A DNA stretch of 64,000 nucleotides, taken from positions 62,001-126,000 of the forward strand of contig NZ_JALNMH010000011.1 in the NCBI RefSeq assembly GCF_023156535.1, in the 5' to 3' direction. The notes under the pieces were generated by a model that was not told where the DNA came from, searched no databases, and saw only the letters and a program-made list of their open reading frames with translations. Source of the stretch: Pseudomarimonas salicorniae. GTDB lineage: Bacteria > Pseudomonadota > Gammaproteobacteria > Xanthomonadales > Xanthomonadaceae. Made by a program: the position numbers and the translations under genes. This document shows positions 9,462 to 38,079 of the stretch, piece by piece; the first letter of the stretch is position 1, and the number at the start of each line of letters is the position of its first letter.

Positions 9462-10139
9462 ATGCGTGAAGCGGCCCGAAGGTGGGTGACAGGGATGATC
9501 GGTGCAGCGGCCTGCTGGGCGGGGGGCGCCGGCGCTGCCGAGCTTGTCGTCAGCCTGCGCGCCGCCGATGGGCCGGTGGCCCACGCGGTGGTCGAATTGC
9601 TCGAGCCGGGCGCGCCTGCGCCCACGCCGAGTCCTGCGGTCATGGATCAGGTGAACTCCGAGTTCGTCCCGCGCCAGCTGATCGTCACGCGCGGCTCGCC
9701 GGTGAGCTTTCCCAACAGCGACAGCACCCGGCACCAGGTCTACTCGTTCTCGGCTGCCAAGCGCTTCGAGCTGCCCCTGTACGCGGGTACGCCGCCCGAC
9801 CCTGTGGTGTTCGACAAGGCCGGACTGGTCACGCTGGGCTGCAACATCCACGACGCCATGATCGGATTCATCGTCGTCGTCGAAACGGAGCGTTACGCGG
9901 TCAGCAACGCGGAGGGCGTGGCGCGTCTGGCCGACCTGCCGGCGGGCGCCTACCGCCTGCGGATCTGGCACGAGCGCCAGGCCGGTGAGCCGCTCCTGCA
10001 TTCCGTGGAGCTGCCGGAGGATGCGCAGGAATCAGTGAGCCTTGAGCTGTCCCTCAAGCCGCCGCGCCCGCCGCGCGGTGACGAGCGCCTGCGCGCCCTG
10101 CAGGAGCGTTTTCGGGCTCTGGACCGTGAGCGCGACTGA
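9462..10139 (+). CDS. Exported cupredoxin-like protein with C-terminal carboxypeptidase-regulatory-like region (cassette 1)
   Basis: 225 residues with a Sec signal peptide (basic start, hydrophobic MIGAAACWAGGAGAA, cleavage near residue 26). A cupredoxin fold carries a complete putative type-1 copper site: H91 (STRHQVYSF), C127, H130 and M133 (GCNIHDAM). The Cys-x2-His-x2-Met spacing is that of amicyanin. A beta-sandwich section follows (GVARLADLPAGAYRLRIWH) and then a charged tail. Proteins like this are often labelled methylamine utilization protein, but no mau genes are present. It is first in a four-gene overlapping cassette, and its 3' end overlaps the sensor gene by 14 bases. A paralogue is at 36675-37355. 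Likely an electron or copper sensor; this is an inference. Confidence 0.75.
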   Translation: MREAARRWVTGMIGAAACWAGGAGAAELVVSLRAADGPVAHAVVELLEPGAPAPTPSPAVMDQVNSEFVPRQLIVTRGSPVSFPNSDSTRHQVYSFSAAKRFELPLYAGTPPDPVVFDKAGLVTLGCNIHDAMIGFIVVVETERYAVSNAEGVARLADLPAGAYRLRIWHERQAGEPLLHSVELPEDAQESVSLELSLKPPRPPRGDERLRALQERFRALDRERD

Positions 10140-12543
10140 GCCGGGTCCCGCCCCCGCACCGCGACCCCTGCGTGGCCGCGGTCGGTTCGCGCGACGCGTG
10201 GTGCTGTCCATGCTGGCGATCATCGTCAGCTTCCAGATCACGGTGCTGGTTGCGACGCGCTACGCCGTATCGACCGCGGTGGACCAGCAGCTTCACCGGC
10301 AGCTGGAGGTGGGCAGCCGGGTCTGGGCACAGTCCCACGGCGCGCAGCTTGTTCAGCTCACCGAGCGTCTGCTGGTGCTGGCCGATGATTTCGGGTTCAA
10401 ACAGGCGGTGGCGACCGAAGACCCGCCGACCCTCCGTTCGGTCCTGGCCAACCAGACCGAGCGGCTGGGTGCGCAGTACGGGCTGCTGTTGGATGCCGAG
10501 GGAATGACCACGGCGAGCCACCTGCCTGACGGCGCCGAACTCCGCGACGCTGACCTGGGTCTGGCGCTGGAGGCGGCGCGCCAGCAGGGCTTTGCGGCGG
10601 GCGTGCTCGCCTTGTCCGGACGGCCGATCCGCTACGCCCTGGCGCCGGTGTTTGCGCCCGATCTGGTCGGCTGGGTCGCGGTCGGGGAGGAGATGGGGCG
10701 GGAGTCACTGGGGCGCTTCGAATCGATCACCGGCCTGGATGCCGCCCTGGCGCTCGGCTCGGACTGCCGGGTCGTGGCGCAGTCTCCCGCGCTTGCCGCC
10801 TTCGATTCGCCGCAGGGATTCTGCGCCACCCTTTCCTCGGCCGACAGCGACCACGAATGGGCACAGATGGAGGGGCTGGCCGGCCGTGCCCTGCGCGCGG
10901 AACGGCTGACCCGCGACGGCTCGGCGCCGGTCTGGTTGCTGATGAGCAGCGCTCGCGAGCAGGCTCTGCAGCCCTTCGCCGGACTGCAGAGCCGCGCGCT
11001 GTGGCTGGGCCTGCTCGCGGCCCTGATCACCCTCGCGGTCGCCAGCTGGATCGGGACCCGGGTGTCGCGGCCGGTGGCTCAGCTGGCCGATGCCGCGACA
11101 CGCATGCGCCAGGGCGACTACGAGGCCCCGGTCGAGGCGCGCGGCGACGATGAGATCGGCCAGCTGGCCCGGGCCTTCACCCGCATGCAGAGGGCGATCG
11201 GCGAGCGCGAGCGGCGCATCCTTCACCAGGCCACCCATGATGGACTGACCGACCTGCCCAACCGCGACCAGGCGCTGCACCGGCTGACCCTGGCGATGGA
11301 AGCCAAGGACGGTGCGGTCGCGCACGGCGCCGTCGTCCGGGTCGACATCCGCCGTTTTCGCGAGGTGAACAACCTGCTTGGGCAGGCCTTCGGCGACGAG
11401 GTGCTGGTGCGCTGTGCCGAACGCCTCAAGGGCGCTGTCCGCGGTCAGGATCTGGTCGCGAGGGTCGGCAGCAACGAGTTCCTGCTGCTGATGTACGGGA
11501 TCGGTGCCGACGATGCGCAGGCGCGGGTCGAGCGGCTGGTCGCGGCGATGAAGGCGCCGCTGGTGCTGAGCCGGACCGAGCTGGCGCTGGATGTCTACGT
11601 CGGAGTCGCGCTGTTTCCCGAGGACGCCATCGATGCCGCCCAGCTGCTGCGCCGGTCGGATATCGCGCTCGGCGCCGCCAAGCGGGGCGGGCAGGTCATC
11701 TCGTTCTATCAGAAGGGCAGCGAGGAGGCGCACCTTCGCCGGCTGCGTCTGATCGGCGACCTGCGCCATGCCGAATCGCGCGGTGAACTGCAGCTGGTCT
11801 TCCAGCCGCAGATGGCCGTTCTCGACGAGCGCCCCGTGCACGCAGAGGCCCTGCTGCGCTGGCGGCACCCCGAGCTTGGCTTCGTGCCGCCGGACGAGTT
11901 CGTCGCCCTGGCCGAACACGCCGGCCTGATTCCCTCGATCACCCGCTTCGTGATCGGCCGCGCCCTGCAGCAGCTCGACGACTGGCGCCTCCGCGGCATC
12001 GACTGCGGGGTGGCGATCAACCTGTCGGCGCTCGACCTCTCCCGACAGGATCTGCCCGAGACGGTGCTCGGTCTGATCTCGAAGTACCGCATCGCCCCGG
12101 AGTTGCTGGTCATCGAGGTGACCGAGAGCGCGATGATGCAGGATCTCGAGCAGTCGATCGCGACCCTGCACAAGCTGCGCTCGGCCGGCATTCCGATCGC
12201 CGTTGACGACTTCGGCACCGGCCAGTCGACCCTGGCCCAGCTCAAGCGGCTGCCGGTCGACCAGCTGAAGATCGACAAGAGTTTTGTCATGGCCCTGCGT
12301 GCCGGCACCGATGATGAGCGCATCGTCAGCTCCATCGTCCAGCTGGCCCACGCCCTCGCCCTGGTGGTTGTCGCCGAGGGTGTGGAAACAGAAGAAGGCC
12401 TGGAGGTCCTGCGCCGACAGGGTTGTGAGCTGGCCCAGGGGTATCTTCACTCGCGCCCGCTGGAGCCCGAGGAGTTCGCCCGCTGGTGGGGCGAGCGGCG
12501 GCGCAAGGAGCGGGTGGCCGCGCACGGCGAGGCGCAGCGGTGA
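10126..12543 (+). CDS. Membrane sensor with HAMP, degenerate GGDEF and intact EAL domain (c-di-GMP phosphodiesterase)
   Basis: 805 residues from a GTG start inside the cupredoxin gene. Layout: membrane segment ~23-48, a periplasmic sensor of ~240 residues, second membrane segment ~291-315, HAMP ~316-365, GGDEF-like domain ~366-530, EAL domain ~550-790. The GGDEF signature is GSNEF (about residues 448-452), so cyclase activity is unlikely. The EAL domain has the needed motifs: E-A-L-L-R-W (Glu about 574), INLSALDLS, EVTESAMM, DDFGTG, LKIDKSF and VAEGVETEEG. It should hydrolyse c-di-GMP to pGpG under control of a periplasmic signal. The sensor resembles that of the Ser/Thr kinase at 33971-36619. 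Its stop overlaps the DUF3034 start. Confidence 0.92.
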   Translation: MSATEPGPAPAPRPLRGRGRFARRVVLSMLAIIVSFQITVLVATRYAVSTAVDQQLHRQLEVGSRVWAQSHGAQLVQLTERLLVLADDFGFKQAVATEDPPTLRSVLANQTERLGAQYGLLLDAEGMTTASHLPDGAELRDADLGLALEAARQQGFAAGVLALSGRPIRYALAPVFAPDLVGWVAVGEEMGRESLGRFESITGLDAALALGSDCRVVAQSPALAAFDSPQGFCATLSSADSDHEWAQMEGLAGRALRAERLTRDGSAPVWLLMSSAREQALQPFAGLQSRALWLGLLAALITLAVASWIGTRVSRPVAQLADAATRMRQGDYEAPVEARGDDEIGQLARAFTRMQRAIGERERRILHQATHDGLTDLPNRDQALHRLTLAMEAKDGAVAHGAVVRVDIRRFREVNNLLGQAFGDEVLVRCAERLKGAVRGQDLVARVGSNEFLLLMYGIGADDAQARVERLVAAMKAPLVLSRTELALDVYVGVALFPEDAIDAAQLLRRSDIALGAAKRGGQVISFYQKGSEEAHLRRLRLIGDLRHAESRGELQLVFQPQMAVLDERPVHAEALLRWRHPELGFVPPDEFVALAEHAGLIPSITRFVIGRALQQLDDWRLRGIDCGVAINLSALDLSRQDLPETVLGLISKYRIAPELLVIEVTESAMMQDLEQSIATLHKLRSAGIPIAVDDFGTGQSTLAQLKRLPVDQLKIDKSFVMALRAGTDDERIVSSIVQLAHALALVVVAEGVETEEGLEVLRRQGCELAQGYLHSRPLEPEEFARWWGERRRKERVAAHGEAQR

Positions 12544-13427
12544 GCGGGCGCTGGCAAGGTCGCGTCGCGGCCGCGCTGCTGCTCGGCCTGCTCGTTGCCG
12601 GGGCGCCTTGCGCCGAAGGCCGGGCCGGGCAGGGTGGGCGACTGCTGGCCACCGGAGGTGCCTCGGTCTTCGAGGGCGGTGCCGGCGGCGGCATCGTGCC
12701 CTGGGCGGTGATCGCTGGCTACGGCAGCGAGGGTCAGTGGGGAGGCAGCGCCTTCGCTACCCGCGCGGTCACCGGCGATTACGAGCTGGAAGCCCGCGGA
12801 CTGGCGTTCGGCTGGAGCAACCGGCTGGAGCTGGGAGTCGCCCGCCAGCGGCTTGCCCTGCCGACGCTCGCCGCCTCACTCGACCTGCCCATTGATCGGT
12901 TCCGCCAGGACGTGTACTCGGCCAAGCTGCGCCTTGCTGGCGATCTGGTCTACTCGCCCTGGCCACAGCTTTCGCTGATCGCCCAGCACAAGCGACAGCG
13001 AGATTTCGCCGTGCCCGTCCTGGTCGGTGCCCGCGACGACACCGACACTGACTGGCTGCTCGCCGCCAGCAAGCTCTGGCTGGGCGGCGCCGGTGGCTAC
13101 AACCTGCTTGGCCATCTCAACCTGCGGTCGACCCGCGCCAACCAGGCCGGGCTGCTGGGATTCGGCGGGGATCGCCGGAACGGCCGCAGCCTGGTCTGGG
13201 AGGGCTCGCTCGCCATCCTGCTCGACCGCCACTGGGCGCTGGGCTATGAGTACCGGCAGAAGCCGGACAACCTTGGATTCGCACGCGAACAGGCCTGGCA
13301 GGACGCCTTCATCGCCTGGTTTCCGAACAAGCGGGTGGCCGTGGTGGCGGCCTGGGCCGATCTTGGCGACGTGGCCAGCCTGCGCGACCAGCGTGGCTGG
13401 TACCTTTCGCTGCAGGTAAGTCGGTGA
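12540..13427 (+). CDS. DUF3034 family exported beta-rich protein (putative outer-membrane protein)
   Basis: 295 residues from a GTG overlapping the preceding stop (GTGA). A signal peptide (VAAALLLGLLVAGAPCAEG) leads to the DUF3034 opening RLLATGGASVFEGGAGGG and PWAVIAGYG, then alternating beta-strand patterns (YELEARGLAFGWSNRLELGVARQRL, LVWEGSLAILLDRHWALGYEYR) ending in YLSLQVSR, as in an outer-membrane barrel. No function is established for the family to my knowledge. Its place between a c-di-GMP sensor and a globin suggests a porin or envelope scaffold for the same process. Family assignment rests on the N-terminal motif and overall pattern. Confidence 0.8.
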   Translation: MSGRWQGRVAAALLLGLLVAGAPCAEGRAGQGGRLLATGGASVFEGGAGGGIVPWAVIAGYGSEGQWGGSAFATRAVTGDYELEARGLAFGWSNRLELGVARQRLALPTLAASLDLPIDRFRQDVYSAKLRLAGDLVYSPWPQLSLIAQHKRQRDFAVPVLVGARDDTDTDWLLAASKLWLGGAGGYNLLGHLNLRSTRANQAGLLGFGGDRRNGRSLVWEGSLAILLDRHWALGYEYRQKPDNLGFAREQAWQDAFIAWFPNKRVAVVAAWADLGDVASLRDQRGWYLSLQVSR

Positions 13428-13855
13428 TCCGGCCTGCCGTCTGCCTCCTTCTGGCCTGCCTGCTGGCGGCCTGCGCCGGGCTGCCGCAGCCGGCCAGCGA
13501 TGATGGCCTGTACCGCCAGTTGGGGGGGCGGGAGGGGATCTCGGCCATCGTCGAGGAAATGCTGGTCCGGCTGGTGGAGGATGAGCGCATCGCCCACCAC
13601 TTCGCCCAGACCGACATCATCCAGCTGCATGAGCGGCTCGTTGAACAGTTCTGCGTCGAAGCCGGTGGGCCATGCACCTACCGGGGCCTGTCGATGGAGG
13701 ACGCCCACATCGGCCTTGATCTGACCGAGGCCGATTTCAACGCCCTGGTCGAGGACCTGGTCGATGCCATGGAGGCGCTCGAGGTGCCGACCCGGGCCCA
13801 GAACCGGCTCCTGAGGCGGCTGGCGCCGATGCGGCCGCAGATCATCCACCGCTAG
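13424..13855 (+). CDS. Lipoprotein truncated hemoglobin (group I-like)
   Basis: 143 residues with a GTG start overlapping the DUF3034 stop (GTGA). The N-terminus has a lipobox LLAAC with C17 as the lipidated cysteine. The rest matches group I truncated globins: LYRQLGGREGISAIVEEML, DERIAHHFAQTD, a distal-type H69, and the probable haem-ligating H95 in the MEDAHIGLDL stretch. Two extra cysteines (C77, C84) could form a periplasmic disulfide. Most truncated globins are cytosolic, so a lipid-anchored one is unusual and fits the other envelope proteins of the cassette. Likely role: binding O2, NO or another ligand at the membrane. The stop TAG is part of the CTAG at the edge of the MITE-like element. 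Confidence 0.85.
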   Translation: MIRPAVCLLLACLLAACAGLPQPASDDGLYRQLGGREGISAIVEEMLVRLVEDERIAHHFAQTDIIQLHERLVEQFCVEAGGPCTYRGLSMEDAHIGLDLTEADFNALVEDLVDAMEALEVPTRAQNRLLRRLAPMRPQIIHR

Positions 13856-14169
13856 CCCGGACATTTCACGAGGTCGCCATGACTCGCTCTGCATCTGGCG
13901 TCTGGCAGCGGGTTCACGTGACCTTTTGCTCCGAACACTTTGCGCCGAAGCGATCCACGGCTGGCGCGGCCCTCGCTTGTCCCTGGCGCCGATCGCCGCG
14001 TTGCTCTTCGCCCAGGTGGGCCCGCCACCTGGACTCGTCGCGCCTTCCGCTCGGCGCTACCTGCCTCTGCCGGGGCGTTCGCGGCGGGCTGAACAGTCCA
14101 CTGGACTGTTCAAGGCGCCCTTGCTCACCCTGCGCGATCATCCGCCCCCTCATGAAATGTCCGGGCTAG
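13852..14169. mobile_element. MITE-like element, 318 bp, with 22-bp terminal inverted repeats
   Basis: The left end reads CTAGCCCGGACATTTCACGA followed by GG (13852-13873) and the right end is its reverse complement with one mismatch (14148-14169). The outer CTAG at both ends could be a 4-bp target duplication, as made by some IS5-group elements. Inside are two palindromes: GAACAGTCC-A-CTGGACTGTTC (about 14091-14111) and CAGGTGG-GCC-CGCCACCTG. No transposase is encoded; short open frames on both strands show no known domain. The 401-base gap 13856-14256 is otherwise the tpiA leader. Confidence 0.65.
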
Positions 14170-14256
14170 GCGCGCGGGTCACGCCGCGGCGCAGCATTGC
14201 TGCGGGCGGGTCAGGCCGGTATCCTCGCGCGCCTTCGACCGCGGGAGGAACCACGC

Positions 14257-32835: not shown

Positions 32836-33954
32836 CTACCAGCGCGCGCGCAGGTCGAGCAGATAGCGGTCGATGCGCTCGTCGCGGCCATCGGCGCGCT
32901 CGAAGAAGCCGGACAGCTGCAGGCTCCAGGTTTCGTCGATGCCGTAGGCAATCCAGGGCATCACCCCGCGCGCCGCGCTATGGAACCACCAGTCATCCTC
33001 GTTGAAGGCCGCCGGCACGGCGTCGCGGCCGATGCGCTGGAAGGCGCTGGCGATCTCCCACTGGCCGGGGATCAGGGCGCTGCCGTAGACGATCGAGAAG
33101 CGCGCGCCGCGGCCGTCCCGATCGGCGCCGAGGTTGTCGACCAGGTCAAGACGCAGTTCCAGCGGCCGCTCGCCAAACATCCGGCGCACGGCGCCCTGCA
33201 GGTTGATCAGTTCGAAATCGCTGGCCAGGCGCCCGTCGACCACGCGGTTGCTGCGCATCAGGCCGCTGCGACGGGTCGACTCAAGCCGGTCGTAGTGCCA
33301 GTAGCCGGCGTGCAGCTCGCCTGAGAACACGCCGCCTTCGTTGAGGAACCAGGAGAACTGCGCGGCGGCGAGTCGCGAGTCGTCCTCGCCCAGATGGTCA
33401 GGGGCGAAGTAGCCGGCCTGGGCGACGAAGCGGTGGAAGTCGCCGATCGGGCGTTCGTGCTGCAGGCTGGCGCCAATCGGGCGCAGGTCGCGATCCCAGG
33501 TCAGCGGGGTGAAGGCCAGGGGCAGGACACTCTTGCCCAGCTGCCACTGCAGCGTATCGCCGCGCCAGCCGACGGCGAACTCGTCGATGCCCACGCCGTC
33601 GGACTTCTCGTTGTCGAGGTTGCGCAGGTTGTCGGCGTTGTCATCGCTGCCGAGTCCGAACTTGGCTACCGCGCGCAGCGTCCACGTCCCATCGTCGCGG
33701 ACGAGGCCGGCGCGCAGTCGCGAGCGCAGGCGTTCGATGTCCTCACGGTTGCTGAAACCGTGGGTGGATTCCGCGCGCAGGGCGAGATCGCCGGTGGCCC
33801 GCCAGGCGCTCCGGACCGGCTGGTCCTCGAACTCGGCCGACTGCAGCAAGGGGTCGATCTCCTGTGCGCCAGCGGCCGCGGTCACGAGCGCCAGCAGAAG
33901 CCCGCACAGCGAGCGGCTGGGGAGTCGGGCGGGACGGGGGCTCGGGCGCGGCAT
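32836..33954 (-). CDS. Putative outer-membrane beta-barrel (porin-like) protein (cassette 2)
   Basis: 372 residues from ATG 33954, chosen because GAGGAAA lies eight bases upstream; a GTG at 33978 would overlap the kinase. Signal peptide SLCGLLLALVTAAAGA. The mature part has alternating amphipathic strands (WTLRAVAKFGLGSD, LQWQLGKSVLPLAF, GGVFSGELHAGYWHYD, LELRLDLVDNLGAD) and ends YLLDLRARW with the terminal aromatic typical of barrel proteins. I do not recognise a named family. It is the last gene of the receiver-cupredoxin-kinase operon, in the place that DUF3034 holds in cassette 1. Confidence 0.7.
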   Translation of the reverse strand: MPRPSPRPARLPSRSLCGLLLALVTAAAGAQEIDPLLQSAEFEDQPVRSAWRATGDLALRAESTHGFSNREDIERLRSRLRAGLVRDDGTWTLRAVAKFGLGSDDNADNLRNLDNEKSDGVGIDEFAVGWRGDTLQWQLGKSVLPLAFTPLTWDRDLRPIGASLQHERPIGDFHRFVAQAGYFAPDHLGEDDSRLAAAQFSWFLNEGGVFSGELHAGYWHYDRLESTRRSGLMRSNRVVDGRLASDFELINLQGAVRRMFGERPLELRLDLVDNLGADRDGRGARFSIVYGSALIPGQWEIASAFQRIGRDAVPAAFNEDDWWFHSAARGVMPWIAYGIDETWSLQLSGFFERADGRDERIDRYLLDLRARW

Positions 33955-33970
33955 CGGCTTTCCTCGCGGC

Positions 33971-36619
33971 TCAGGCACGCAGCGCGGAAAGCGCGCGCCC
34001 CAGCTCGGTGGCGGACTGGTAGCGGTCCTCGCGGCGGCGCTGCAGGCAGCGCAGGATGATCGCGTCGAGGGCCTCGGGCAGGTCCGGCTTCAGCTCGCGC
34101 GGCGAGGGCGTCTCGCCCTGCATCTGCGCCATGTAGATTTCCACCGTGGTGCTGCCGGGGAAGGGCAGGCGGCCGCAGAACATTTCGCAGAGCAGCACGC
34201 CGCTGGCGAAAATGTCGGCGCGGTGGTCGACGTCCTCGCCGGCCAGCTGCTCGGGCGCCGAATAGGCTGGGGTGCCGACGTACATCCCGGGCTCGGTCTG
34301 TCCAGGCGCGATGCGGCGGATCGGGCGGGCGATGCCGAAGTCCATCAGCTTGGCGTTGCCGCTGGCCTCGAGGATCAGGTTTTCCGGCTTGATGTCGCGG
34401 TGCAGGACGCCGACGTCGTGGGCGGCCTCAAGGCCCGCGCAGAGCTGGCGGGCGATGCGCAGCGCGGCGGTATAAGGCACCGAGCCGCTCTGCTGCAGCA
34501 GGTAGCGCAGGGTCATGCCGCGTACGTATTCCATGCTGATGAAAGGCATGCCTTCGATCTCACCGAAGTCGAAGGTGCGCAGCACGTTTGGATGGGTGAT
34601 CCGGCGGGCCAGCTTGATCTCGCTCTTCAGGCGCTCGAGCTGGTCGCGGTCGCGCAGGGCGTCGGGCTTGAGCATCTTCAGCGCGACAACGTCGTCAAGC
34701 TCCAGGTCGCGGGCCTTGTAGACCACGCCCATGCCGCCGCTGCCGAGCACGGAGAGCACCCGGAAGCGTCCGCTCAGCCGCTGCCCGGGCACGAGGGCCT
34801 GGGCGTCGCCCCCGCGCGCGGCCGGTCGCTCAACGGTGGCCGCGCTGGCCGTCGCCCGGGGCGCGCGCGGCTGGGGCGGGCTGGCCGGCAGGCCGGACAG
34901 GGCAGAGCGGGCCACGGCATAGTAGGGTTTGCCGCTGAGTGCGCCCTTCACCACCTTGCGTTCCACTTCGGGAAGCTCGCTGCGGAGTCGTTCGCCGAGG
35001 GGGCGGGAGAGCAGCAACCAGCCTGCGCCGCTTTCGGCCAGCAGCCGCTCGACGCCGTGCAGGGCCGCGCCCCAGGCGATATCCGGCCGGCCGGCCGCGC
35101 CGACCTCGACCAGCAGCTCGCCCTCGCCGATCGCGGCGCGCAGGCCCGGGTGGTCTGCCAGCGCACCGCGCAGCACGTGCAAGGCGGAGACCAGGGCCTG
35201 ATCGCCTTCGAAAACCAGCAGGGCGTCGGTGCCGAAGGCGGCCGGCAGCTGCCCGCCATGGTCCTCGGCAAGGCCTGCCAGCGCGTCGAGCAACTCGCGC
35301 ACCGCGCCCTGTCGCGCCGCGCGCTCGCCTTCGGTGGGCAGGGCAGAGCGCAGGTCGACCAGCAGCAACAGGCCGCCCAGCCAGCGTGAGGCAGGCAGGT
35401 CTCCGGCCGCGCCCGCGGTTTCCGGTTCGTCTCCCGGTTCGGGGAGCAGCCGTGAGAGGTGGGTGACGTAGGACTCGATGTCGCGCTCTCCGCGAAGATC
35501 CGAGAGCAGGCTGTCGAAGGCGCGCGAGAGTTCGGCCAGTTCATCGCGACCTTCCAGATGGAAGCGCGTCTGGTAGTTGCCGGACACCGCGTCCTTGGCC
35601 GCGCGAGCCATGTCGCGCAGCGGGCGCAGGGTGGTCCGGGCGAGCAGCAGGCTCAGCGGCAGGGCGACGAGCAGGGCGGCGAGGCCCGCGACAGCCACCG
35701 TATTGAGGATCGCGCGGTAGCCTGCTTCGGCGCGATCGAGCGAGGTCAGCTGCAGGGCCGAGCCGACTTCGGCGCCGCCTTCCAGCGACAGCGGCCGCAG
35801 GCGCGCCACCCAGCGCGAGCCGGCCAGCTGCAGTTCGCTGCGCTCGAGCGCGCCGGTTCGGCGGACCGCCTCGCCGAGCTCCGACCCTTCGCGGCGAAGC
35901 GCCGCATCGAGGTCGGCCAGCTCGTTGGCCGCGAGCGAGGAGGCACCGATCACGATGCCATCGTCGCGCGGCAGCAGGAAGGCGATGTCGGCATCGCTGA
36001 TTGCCCGGATGCGTTCGGCCATGGCCAGGTCGATGGCCCGGGCGACGATCAGGAAACCGACCAGGTCGCCGCCCTGGTCCAGCGGCCAGACCGCCGCCTG
36101 GTAGAGCGCGCTGCCCATCCGCCAGTAGCCGCTGATCGGCGTGATCGGCTCCACCGCTGAGGCGATGAAGGGATCAGCCGCCAGAGACTCCTCGATCGGC
36201 TCGGGCTGGTCGCTGCGGGCAAGCACCTGGCCGAGGGGGTCCAGCACCATGCCGAGGTCGAAGCCGAAGGCCTCCTGGCGCTCGACCAGCAGGTCGTAGA
36301 TCGAGGCGGTTTCGGCAAGGCCCGCCGGGGCGGCGCCGGGCACGCCGCCCTGCGACTCGCTGATGTAGTTGACGAAGGGCGCGTCGGCGGCGATCAGCTG
36401 AACCTTGAGTTCCACCTCGGCGAGGCGCTGGCTGGCAAACTCCTGCTGAACCGTGGCGCTGGACTCCAGCGCATGACGCACCGCCCGTTCGGCCACCGCC
36501 GCGCCCTGGCGGAAGCTGACCCAGACCGCGGCACCAATGGCCAGCAACAGCAGGCCGGCCACCAGCAGGAACATGCGCGTGGCGAGCGGCAGGCGGCGGG
36601 TGGAGGCGGGATCGCTCAA
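33971..36619 (-). CDS. Transmembrane sensor Ser/Thr protein kinase with HAMP and degenerate cyclase-like domain (cassette 2)
   Basis: 882 residues from a TTG start with AGGA at a proper distance. Order: membrane helix ~15-35, periplasmic sensor of ~250 residues, second helix ~305-330, HAMP, a middle region resembling a class III nucleotidyl cyclase without catalytic residues (LLLLVDLRSALPTEGE, FGTDALLVFEGD, GAALHGVERLLAESGAG), then a complete Hanks-type kinase: GSGGMGVVYKA, K648, HRDIKPEN with D742, DFG with D760 and APEQ. The kinase is C-terminal, opposite to PknB-type proteins. The sensor resembles that of the EAL protein in cassette 1. Gene neighbours suggest it reads a copper/redox envelope signal. 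Confidence 0.88.
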   Translation of the reverse strand: MSDPASTRRLPLATRMFLLVAGLLLLAIGAAVWVSFRQGAAVAERAVRHALESSATVQQEFASQRLAEVELKVQLIAADAPFVNYISESQGGVPGAAPAGLAETASIYDLLVERQEAFGFDLGMVLDPLGQVLARSDQPEPIEESLAADPFIASAVEPITPISGYWRMGSALYQAAVWPLDQGGDLVGFLIVARAIDLAMAERIRAISDADIAFLLPRDDGIVIGASSLAANELADLDAALRREGSELGEAVRRTGALERSELQLAGSRWVARLRPLSLEGGAEVGSALQLTSLDRAEAGYRAILNTVAVAGLAALLVALPLSLLLARTTLRPLRDMARAAKDAVSGNYQTRFHLEGRDELAELSRAFDSLLSDLRGERDIESYVTHLSRLLPEPGDEPETAGAAGDLPASRWLGGLLLLVDLRSALPTEGERAARQGAVRELLDALAGLAEDHGGQLPAAFGTDALLVFEGDQALVSALHVLRGALADHPGLRAAIGEGELLVEVGAAGRPDIAWGAALHGVERLLAESGAGWLLLSRPLGERLRSELPEVERKVVKGALSGKPYYAVARSALSGLPASPPQPRAPRATASAATVERPAARGGDAQALVPGQRLSGRFRVLSVLGSGGMGVVYKARDLELDDVVALKMLKPDALRDRDQLERLKSEIKLARRITHPNVLRTFDFGEIEGMPFISMEYVRGMTLRYLLQQSGSVPYTAALRIARQLCAGLEAAHDVGVLHRDIKPENLILEASGNAKLMDFGIARPIRRIAPGQTEPGMYVGTPAYSAPEQLAGEDVDHRADIFASGVLLCEMFCGRLPFPGSTTVEIYMAQMQGETPSPRELKPDLPEALDAIILRCLQRRREDRYQSATELGRALSALRA

Positions 36620-36674
36620 CGGTCCTGGGTGGTCAATGGAAGCCTGCGGTTGGGGCGGCCGGCGCGCAGCGCGA

Positions 36675-37355
36675 TCAGTAGCGGTTGACGCCGCGGCCGT
36701 AGGGTTTTCCGAACTTGTTCATGTGTGGCGGCACCTTGCGTCGGGTCAGTGACAGCTGGACCTCGACCTCGGTCGGGGCCCCGCCGATCTCCACTCGCTT
36801 CTGCCAGATGCTGGCGCGGTCGTGGAACACCACCAGCGTGCCGGGGCCCTCGGGCAGGGAGTCGAGACGGAAGCGGCCCTCGGCATCGGGGCGGGTGAAC
36901 CAGGGCACATCGAGCACCAGGATGTGCGCCGACATCGCGTGGTGAACGTTGCAGTAGACCTTGACCAGCCCCGGCGTGTCGAAGCGGTGCCGGCTGCCTT
37001 CACCGGCGCCGTAGACCCCGGTATCGAACTGGTTGCCGGCGGAGCTGGAGAAGGCGTTGTGCAGGATCGGATCCTGGTTGGGGAAGGCCACCTCGGTGCC
37101 CGGGGTGATCGCCATTACTCTTGGCAGGAACTGCTTGCGGCGGGTGCTCATGCTCTGCGGCGGCATCGGCGCCGGAGGCTCGAATGCGGCGTCGGGGCGG
37201 AAGTAGACCACCGCATCGGCGGCCTCACTGGCGCGCAGGGCCTGTCCGCTGCTGTCGAGCCGGACCTGGCCGGAGAGCGACGCCGCTGCGACGGGCAGCG
37301 GCAGCGCCGCCAGCACGGCAAGGACCAGTCCGGACAGCCGGCGCACGGATCCCAC
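36675..37355 (-). CDS. Exported cupredoxin-like protein (cassette 2)
   Basis: 226 residues, GTG start two bases after the receiver gene. Signal peptide LVLAVLAALPLPVAAA. The putative type-1 copper ligands are H99 (DPILHNAFS), C135, H138 and M141 (YCNVHHAM), the same Cys-x2-His-x2-Met spacing as the protein at 9462-10139, followed by the same kind of beta-sandwich region (GRFRLDSLPEGPGTLVVFHDRASI). An extra Met/Gln-rich stretch (PMPPQSMS) lies before the fold. It is 55 bases upstream of the sensor kinase, and probably supplies its periplasmic redox or copper input. Confidence 0.75.
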   Translation of the reverse strand: MGSVRRLSGLVLAVLAALPLPVAAASLSGQVRLDSSGQALRASEAADAVVYFRPDAAFEPPAPMPPQSMSTRRKQFLPRVMAITPGTEVAFPNQDPILHNAFSSSAGNQFDTGVYGAGEGSRHRFDTPGLVKVYCNVHHAMSAHILVLDVPWFTRPDAEGRFRLDSLPEGPGTLVVFHDRASIWQKRVEIGGAPTEVEVQLSLTRRKVPPHMNKFGKPYGRGVNRY

Positions 37356-37357
37356 GC

Positions 37358-37891
37358 TCAGTTGCCCTCGCTGTTGTCGACCACGCTCGGTCCCGGATCG
37401 CCGTCGTCCAGCGCGGTAGGCAGGCGCGACGCATCGAGCAGGCGCTCGAGATGGGAGAACAGTTCCGCGCGGGGGAAGGGCTTCTTCAGGAAGCTGTCGG
37501 CGCCGATCCGCTGGGCGTAGAACTGCTCGGTGGCCTGCATGTTGCCGCTCATCATGATCACCGGAATGTCGCGGGTCTCGGGGTCGCGCTTGAGCGCGCG
37601 CAGGGCGGCGAATCCGTTCATGCCGGGCAGGACGATATCCAGGAACACGACGTCGGGACGTTCACTGCGGGCCAGCTGGATGCCGGATTCGGCGTCCTGT
37701 GCGGTGCTCGTGAGATAGCCGTTCTGCCTCAGCATCTTGCCGAGGACCGCCAGTACGGTGTTGGAGTCGTCGATGATCAGGGCTCGGGTGCCATCCGGCG
37801 GCGGGCTGCGCGGTCGGCGGCGACGTTCCACGAAACTCTCGGTTCCACCGAAGAGGCGTCTGAACAGGCCGGGTTTTGCGGTGCTGGACAT
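37358..37891 (-). CDS. Single-domain response regulator (CheY/PilH-like)
   Basis: 177 residues from ATG 37891, preceded by GGGGAAG; the longer in-frame version has an untypical Arg/Pro-rich front. A basic N-terminal extension (RRLFGGTESFVERRRR) is followed by a receiver domain with D41/D42, phospho-acceptor D85 (FLDIVLPGMNG), S115 and K137, and an acidic tail. There is no output domain. It resembles pilus-type receivers such as PilH. It starts the cupredoxin-kinase-barrel operon, and no histidine kinase is nearby. Phosphorylation by the Ser/Thr kinase or an orphan histidine kinase are both possible. Confidence 0.85.
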   Translation of the reverse strand: MSSTAKPGLFRRLFGGTESFVERRRRPRSPPPDGTRALIIDDSNTVLAVLGKMLRQNGYLTSTAQDAESGIQLARSERPDVVFLDIVLPGMNGFAALRALKRDPETRDIPVIMMSGNMQATEQFYAQRIGADSFLKKPFPRAELFSHLERLLDASRLPTALDDGDPGPSVVDNSEGN

Positions 37892-38079
37892 GGCGCTTCC
37901 CCCTCTGACCGCGCCAGTGTGGCGCGAGATGCAGGGCTTGGCAAAGGTGGCCGGCGTCACGCGGTCCGGGCGGTCGAGGTCCGCCCGCCGTGGCCCGCGC
38001 GGCCCCCGCGTCAAGACAGCGGATGCCAGCGCCCCCGCCGACCTCTAGACTGTGGGCCTTCCTTTCAAGGCCGCAAGCG

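Follow-up and report, generated by a model that had tools for sequence, protein, structure and literature searches.

The window, by which we mean the whole stretch of 64,000 nucleotides that was analysed, carries four genes between positions 9462 and 13855 that overlap in series by 14, 4 and 4 bases (Table 1). Both the coordinates and the overlaps are exactly those reported in an earlier sequence-only reading of this DNA.

Table 1. Features of the window discussed in the text; positions are those of the window
Feature	Position	Strand	Description
CUP gene	9462..10139	+	Exported amicyanin-like type-1 cupredoxin, apparently inserted in an Ig-like (CarboxypepD_reg-like) domain
EAL receptor gene	10126..12543	+	GTG start; transmembrane; dCache_3, HAMP, degenerate GGDEF (GSNEF), intact EAL
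DUF3034 gene	12540..13427	+	GTG start; exported; predicted 12-strand outer-membrane beta-barrel
GLB gene	13424..13855	+	GTG start; lipoprotein, group-1 truncated haemoglobin
MITE-like element	13852..14170		About 320 bases, directly 3' of the globin gene
OMB3 gene	32836..33978	-	Porin-like outer-membrane protein, homologous to those of loci L195 and L068
Kinase receptor gene	33971..36619	-	Membrane receptor with HAMP and Ser/Thr protein kinase output
Second cupredoxin gene	36675..37355	-	Same family as CUP
Response-regulator gene	37358..38014	-	Receiver-domain protein adjoining the kinase version

Products of the four genes

In Pfam searches the receptor matches EAL (2.7e-71), GGDEF (2.6e-33), HAMP (5.9e-15) and dCache_3 (6.7e-9), the third product matches DUF3034 (PF11231; 4.2e-102, with 341.5 bits against a gathering cut-off of 25) and the fourth matches Bac_globin (3.8e-14). 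The first product, CUP, has no Pfam match at gathering level. A profile of its relatives matches copper nitrite reductase, amicyanin and pseudoazurin, and members of the family match Cupredoxin_1 and Copper-bind weakly. The AlphaFold2 model of CUP (pLDDT 88) has its fold matches among the cupredoxins, including amicyanin and plastocyanin. All 119 relatives keep the predicted copper ligands H91, C127, H130 and M133. A CarboxypepD_reg-like signal is located past the copper loop, from which the cupredoxin appears to be set within an Ig-like domain. CUP shares with amicyanin and pseudoazurin the cupredoxin fold and a copper loop of amicyanin spacing, C-x2-H-x2-M. It differs from them in this insertion, in a C-terminal helix, in the receptor that adjoins it and in the absence of methylamine dehydrogenase from its typed neighbours.

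Hydrophobic segments of the receptor, at about residues 22-48 and 287-314, lie either side of a periplasmic dCache domain. The EAL domain retains its full catalytic set (ExL, Asn, Glu, DDFG, Lys, Glu and Gln), and the catalytic residues E574, N632, E667, D694, D695, K715 and E751 are invariant across 113 receptor sequences. The GGDEF domain has GSNEF in place of the GGDEF/GGEEF active-site motif, which is decayed across the relatives. The invariance of the one domain and the degeneracy of the other argue that the receptor should be a c-di-GMP phosphodiesterase, perhaps with GTP as its regulator.

The DUF3034 protein is predicted to be an outer-membrane beta-barrel of 12 strands. The best fold matches of its model (pLDDT 77, with the N-terminal 60 residues at low confidence) are outer-membrane barrels such as FapF, at modest Foldseek TM-scores of about 0.44-0.51. 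The strand number is also that of FapF and other small outer-membrane barrels; identity to FapF is about 11% at a TM-score of about 0.5, and signs of an amyloid system are otherwise absent from the four genes. A sequence search of solved structures gave no match for DUF3034, and weak partial matches of its profile, to designed proteins only, were set aside; the viral collection contained no relatives. We also rejected what looked like a fusion of EAL and DUF3034 in Xanthomonas phaseoli (L115, 5547-8789), because its EAL end is frame-shifted and runs into DUF3034.

GLB has HbN as its best solved match (8e-16), and its 2-on-2 globin match and proximal HisF8 (His95, kept in 126 of 126 relatives) are those of a group-1 truncated haemoglobin. 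A cysteine pair, Cys77/Cys84, is found in 125 of the 126. The lipobox (LAAC in the window) is present in 102 of 126 relatives and is most often followed by Ala, which by the usual sorting rule favours an outer-membrane location. The distal pocket is apolar, with Leu47 at B10 and Leu72 at E11, where the relatives are mostly Leu or aliphatic, and it lacks the TyrB10 and GlnE11 that mark NO dioxygenases of the HbN type; such a pocket is compatible with NO or CO rather than O2 as ligand. The MITE-like element that borders the globin gene has near-perfect 21-base terminal inverted repeats (tagcccggacatttca.gagg), and diverged copies, full or partial, are found on contigs C23, C6, C3 and C2 of the genome.

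The sequence-only reading had described these products as a periplasmic type-1 copper-site protein, a membrane sensor with an intact EAL domain, an exported beta-rich DUF3034 protein and a membrane-anchored truncated globin. This observation is confirmed; the degeneracy of the GGDEF motif is a point that the sequence-only reading had left unmentioned.

Recurrence of the set and exchange of its parts

The phylum sample comprised 398 genomes, 46 with DUF3034 and the remaining 352, and yielded 48 DUF3034 loci, the window included; 80 named loci from Pseudomonas, Stutzerimonas, Halopseudomonas, Xanthomonas, Pseudoxanthomonas, Silanimonas, Pseudomarimonas and others brought the number to 128. A neighbourhood search had been set beforehand as a check on the sequence-only reading, and the four genes do co-occur elsewhere, phylum-wide: in the phylum sample 36 of the 48 DUF3034 loci hold all four, and in the enlarged set 114 of 128 do, a recurrence that is confirmed to be far above chance. 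With starts taken at the nearest in-frame codon, the three junctions mostly measure 30 bases or less (102/104, 98/104 and 123/125). The cupredoxin, counted per genome at 105 bits or more, occurs in 45 of the 46 DUF3034 genomes against 17 of the 352 others, a difference with p 5e-44 before any correction for ancestry. The GLB subfamily (at least 125 bits) is nearly exclusive to DUF3034 genomes, being present in 46/46 of them and in 2/352 others. Four genomes (G182, G190, G214 and G336) carry both the cupredoxin-EAL pair and the DUF3034-globin pair, but at separate sites, and in genomes from a different class CUP and EAL are oriented away from the pair of DUF3034 and globin. A broken second copy of DUF3034 was seen at L048 (G078, contig 3), in a 2.3 Mb genome without the cupredoxin.

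At two loci the EAL receptor is replaced by a kinase. L049, the second DUF3034 locus of the window's own genome (on contig 7), consists of the cupredoxin, a HAMP-Ser/Thr kinase, DUF3034 and the globin, and at L068 the replacement is a HAMP-Ser/Thr kinase receptor with dCache_3. We therefore searched two genome samples with a profile of CUP alone and typed the neighbours of 93 strong cupredoxins; the profile (A2) was made from DUF3034-linked cupredoxins, and the neighbour counts are mildly biased by this. Cupredoxin matches below 100 bits have no such receptors alongside and were treated as a separate family. The window itself holds a second version, with a kinase output, at 32836-38014 (Table 1); together with the four genes at 9462-13855 and L049 it brings the versions in this genome to three.

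A dCache/HAMP membrane receptor lies within 2 kb of 81 of the 93 cupredoxins, and its output is an EAL domain in 62 cases, a Ser/Thr kinase in 9, a class III cyclase in 7 and a histidine kinase in 3. DUF3034 or another porin-like partner is found near 76 of the 93; these others, OMB2, OMB3 and OMB4, were grouped by mutual homology and have weak Pfam matches to Porin_4, OMP_b-brl or Porin_5, or none. Five EAL loci are without a local barrel, and every one of their genomes has DUF3034 elsewhere. The parts occur in several combinations (OMB2 with EAL, histidine kinase or cyclase; OMB4 with EAL or cyclase; DUF3034 with EAL or Ser/Thr kinase), and a quick tree, in which many forks are weak, gives at least 7 changes of output and at least 13 of partner. 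The conserved core is the cupredoxin with its dCache receptor, around which outputs and outer-membrane partners are interchangeable. The four-gene 'cassette' proposed by the sequence-only reading is thus too narrow a frame. Its proposal that the four genes make up a single envelope module with a signalling output is well supported by the conservation, the invariant active sites and the near-exclusive co-occurrence; redox or gas sensing, which it also proposed, is a conjecture.

The other 12 cupredoxins have no recognised adjoining receptor, and 6 of them stand with an outer-membrane protein alone, so that CUP may also have a non-signalling role. Near the cupredoxin-Ser/Thr kinase genes of L240 and L242 there is a PP2C phosphatase gene, and at L242 also an FHA gene, as expected of kinase signalling. 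At L216 (1953-5983) a MauG-type di-haem peroxidase and a PAS hybrid histidine kinase come in succession after the cupredoxin.

A candidate trans-envelope relay and its alternatives

What might such a set of proteins do? We consider it an even call that the four genes are one of several variants of a modular system for signalling across the envelope. The DUF3034 barrel would admit or handle a redox-active or gaseous ligand, with the lipoprotein globin at the periplasmic face. The periplasmic cupredoxin would take up the state of this ligand, as copper loading or as Cu(I)/Cu(II), and dock on the dCache receptor, whose HAMP domain would relay the change to the output domain. In the four-gene version, the degenerate GGDEF would have a regulatory part and c-di-GMP would be hydrolysed by the EAL domain; the resulting change in c-di-GMP would move the cell from attached to motile behaviour or back. 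We infer this relay from barrel to cupredoxin to receptor, with copper or redox state as the periplasmic input; since the cupredoxin and the dCache receptor are constant across outputs and barrels, the cupredoxin would be part of the input. CUP divergence is correlated both with that of the receptor and with that of the barrel, whereas the correlation between receptor and barrel vanishes (0.067) once CUP, together with EAL and globin, is controlled for, as would follow if CUP stood between the two. Shared ancestry limits this test, which points weakly to the chain order barrel-cupredoxin-receptor. Against the relay counts the similarity of the dCache domain to ordinary small-molecule receptors. 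Upstream sites for FNR/DNR, CueR, CopR, NsrR, NorR and FleQ are not above shuffled controls; sigma-54-like sites number 37 against 22 in such controls, under a criterion too loose for the difference to be used. With more reserve, we tentatively extend the relay to trans-envelope receptors as a widespread class. The input subunit of their dCache receptors, whose outputs and barrels are exchanged, would be a periplasmic blue-copper protein, and the state of its copper site would itself be the signal.

We think it unlikely that the set is instead a unit for NO defence and dispersal, whose outer-membrane globin would bind or oxidise NO while the cupredoxin exchanges electrons with this globin and the EAL receptor lowers c-di-GMP in the presence of NO. 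GLB is nearest to the HbN group, whose member in Mycobacterium tuberculosis is an NO dioxygenase, its lack of TyrB10 and GlnE11 disfavours stable O2 binding, and NO-triggered loss of c-di-GMP occurs in other systems. However, these two missing residues are the ones that HbN uses for dioxygenation, the FNR/DNR and NsrR sites are not enriched, and the globin is absent from the Ser/Thr kinase/OMB3, OMB2 and OMB4 versions; gas sensing therefore cannot be the common principle. More doubtful is a role in copper acquisition or homeostasis, in which the barrel would move copper or a chelate, the cupredoxin store or deliver it and the receptor report the supply. The invariant type-1 ligands, the several loci composed of a cupredoxin and an outer-membrane barrel alone and the precedent of copper uptake by azurin-OprC all suit it, but CueR and CopR sites are not enriched upstream, the typed neighbours include no copper ATPase or oxidase, and the globin is left unexplained. 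That the proteins form an envelope electron-transfer or detoxification unit of locally controlled assembly, in which the receptor would sense some unrelated small molecule and the cupredoxin would be among the things controlled rather than the input, accords with the direct binding of small ligands that is usual for dCache domains and with the peroxidase between CUP and the kinase at L216, but is improbable, as four output chemistries alongside the same cupredoxin are hard to explain under local expression control.

Known systems and significance of the proposed relay

The sequence-only reading knew of no characterised system with this set, and none was found in the open-access literature searched, judged by title and abstract; nor did that literature yield a paper in which a cupredoxin is paired with receptors of this kind. 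It gave nothing useful on DUF3034 either: the word occurs in just two of its papers, one on Streptomyces genomes and one that has it a single time, in a figure legend on DUF3037 neighbourhoods, where it looks like a slip. By analogy, the nearest system in working principle is YfiBNR (TpbB) of Pseudomonas, with components that are not shared. It too combines an outer-membrane component, a periplasmic redox-responsive protein and an inner-membrane HAMP receptor that alters c-di-GMP. Its receptor is a cyclase, whereas that of the window is a putative phosphodiesterase, and YfiR and an OmpA-like lipoprotein take the places of the copper protein and the barrel; no homologues of YfiR or of the OmpA-like YfiB are among the Pfam matches of the four genes. 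Pairs of the LuxP/LuxQ type likewise join a soluble periplasmic protein to a transmembrane Cache-type receptor, but here the soluble partner is a cupredoxin, the outputs are exchanged among the four types named above, and the set includes a partner in the outer membrane. DosC/DosP and other haem-based c-di-GMP sensors resemble the window in that an operon unites a haem protein with a c-di-GMP phosphodiesterase; unlike them, the window's globin is a separate, extracytoplasmic lipoprotein and is not fused to the enzyme.

These results give DUF3034 a predicted location, in the outer membrane as a barrel, and a haem protein that almost always accompanies it, and they tie an orphan cupredoxin family to signal transduction. 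The set is found in Pseudomonas, Stutzerimonas and Xanthomonas, where surface life is controlled by c-di-GMP. One periplasmic partner is found with four output chemistries, so that the dCache input could be studied through whichever output is most easily assayed. At L039 (3165-4496) an ECF sigma factor adjoins DUF3034, the globin and the cupredoxin, with the dCache receptor absent, and is a possible fifth output.
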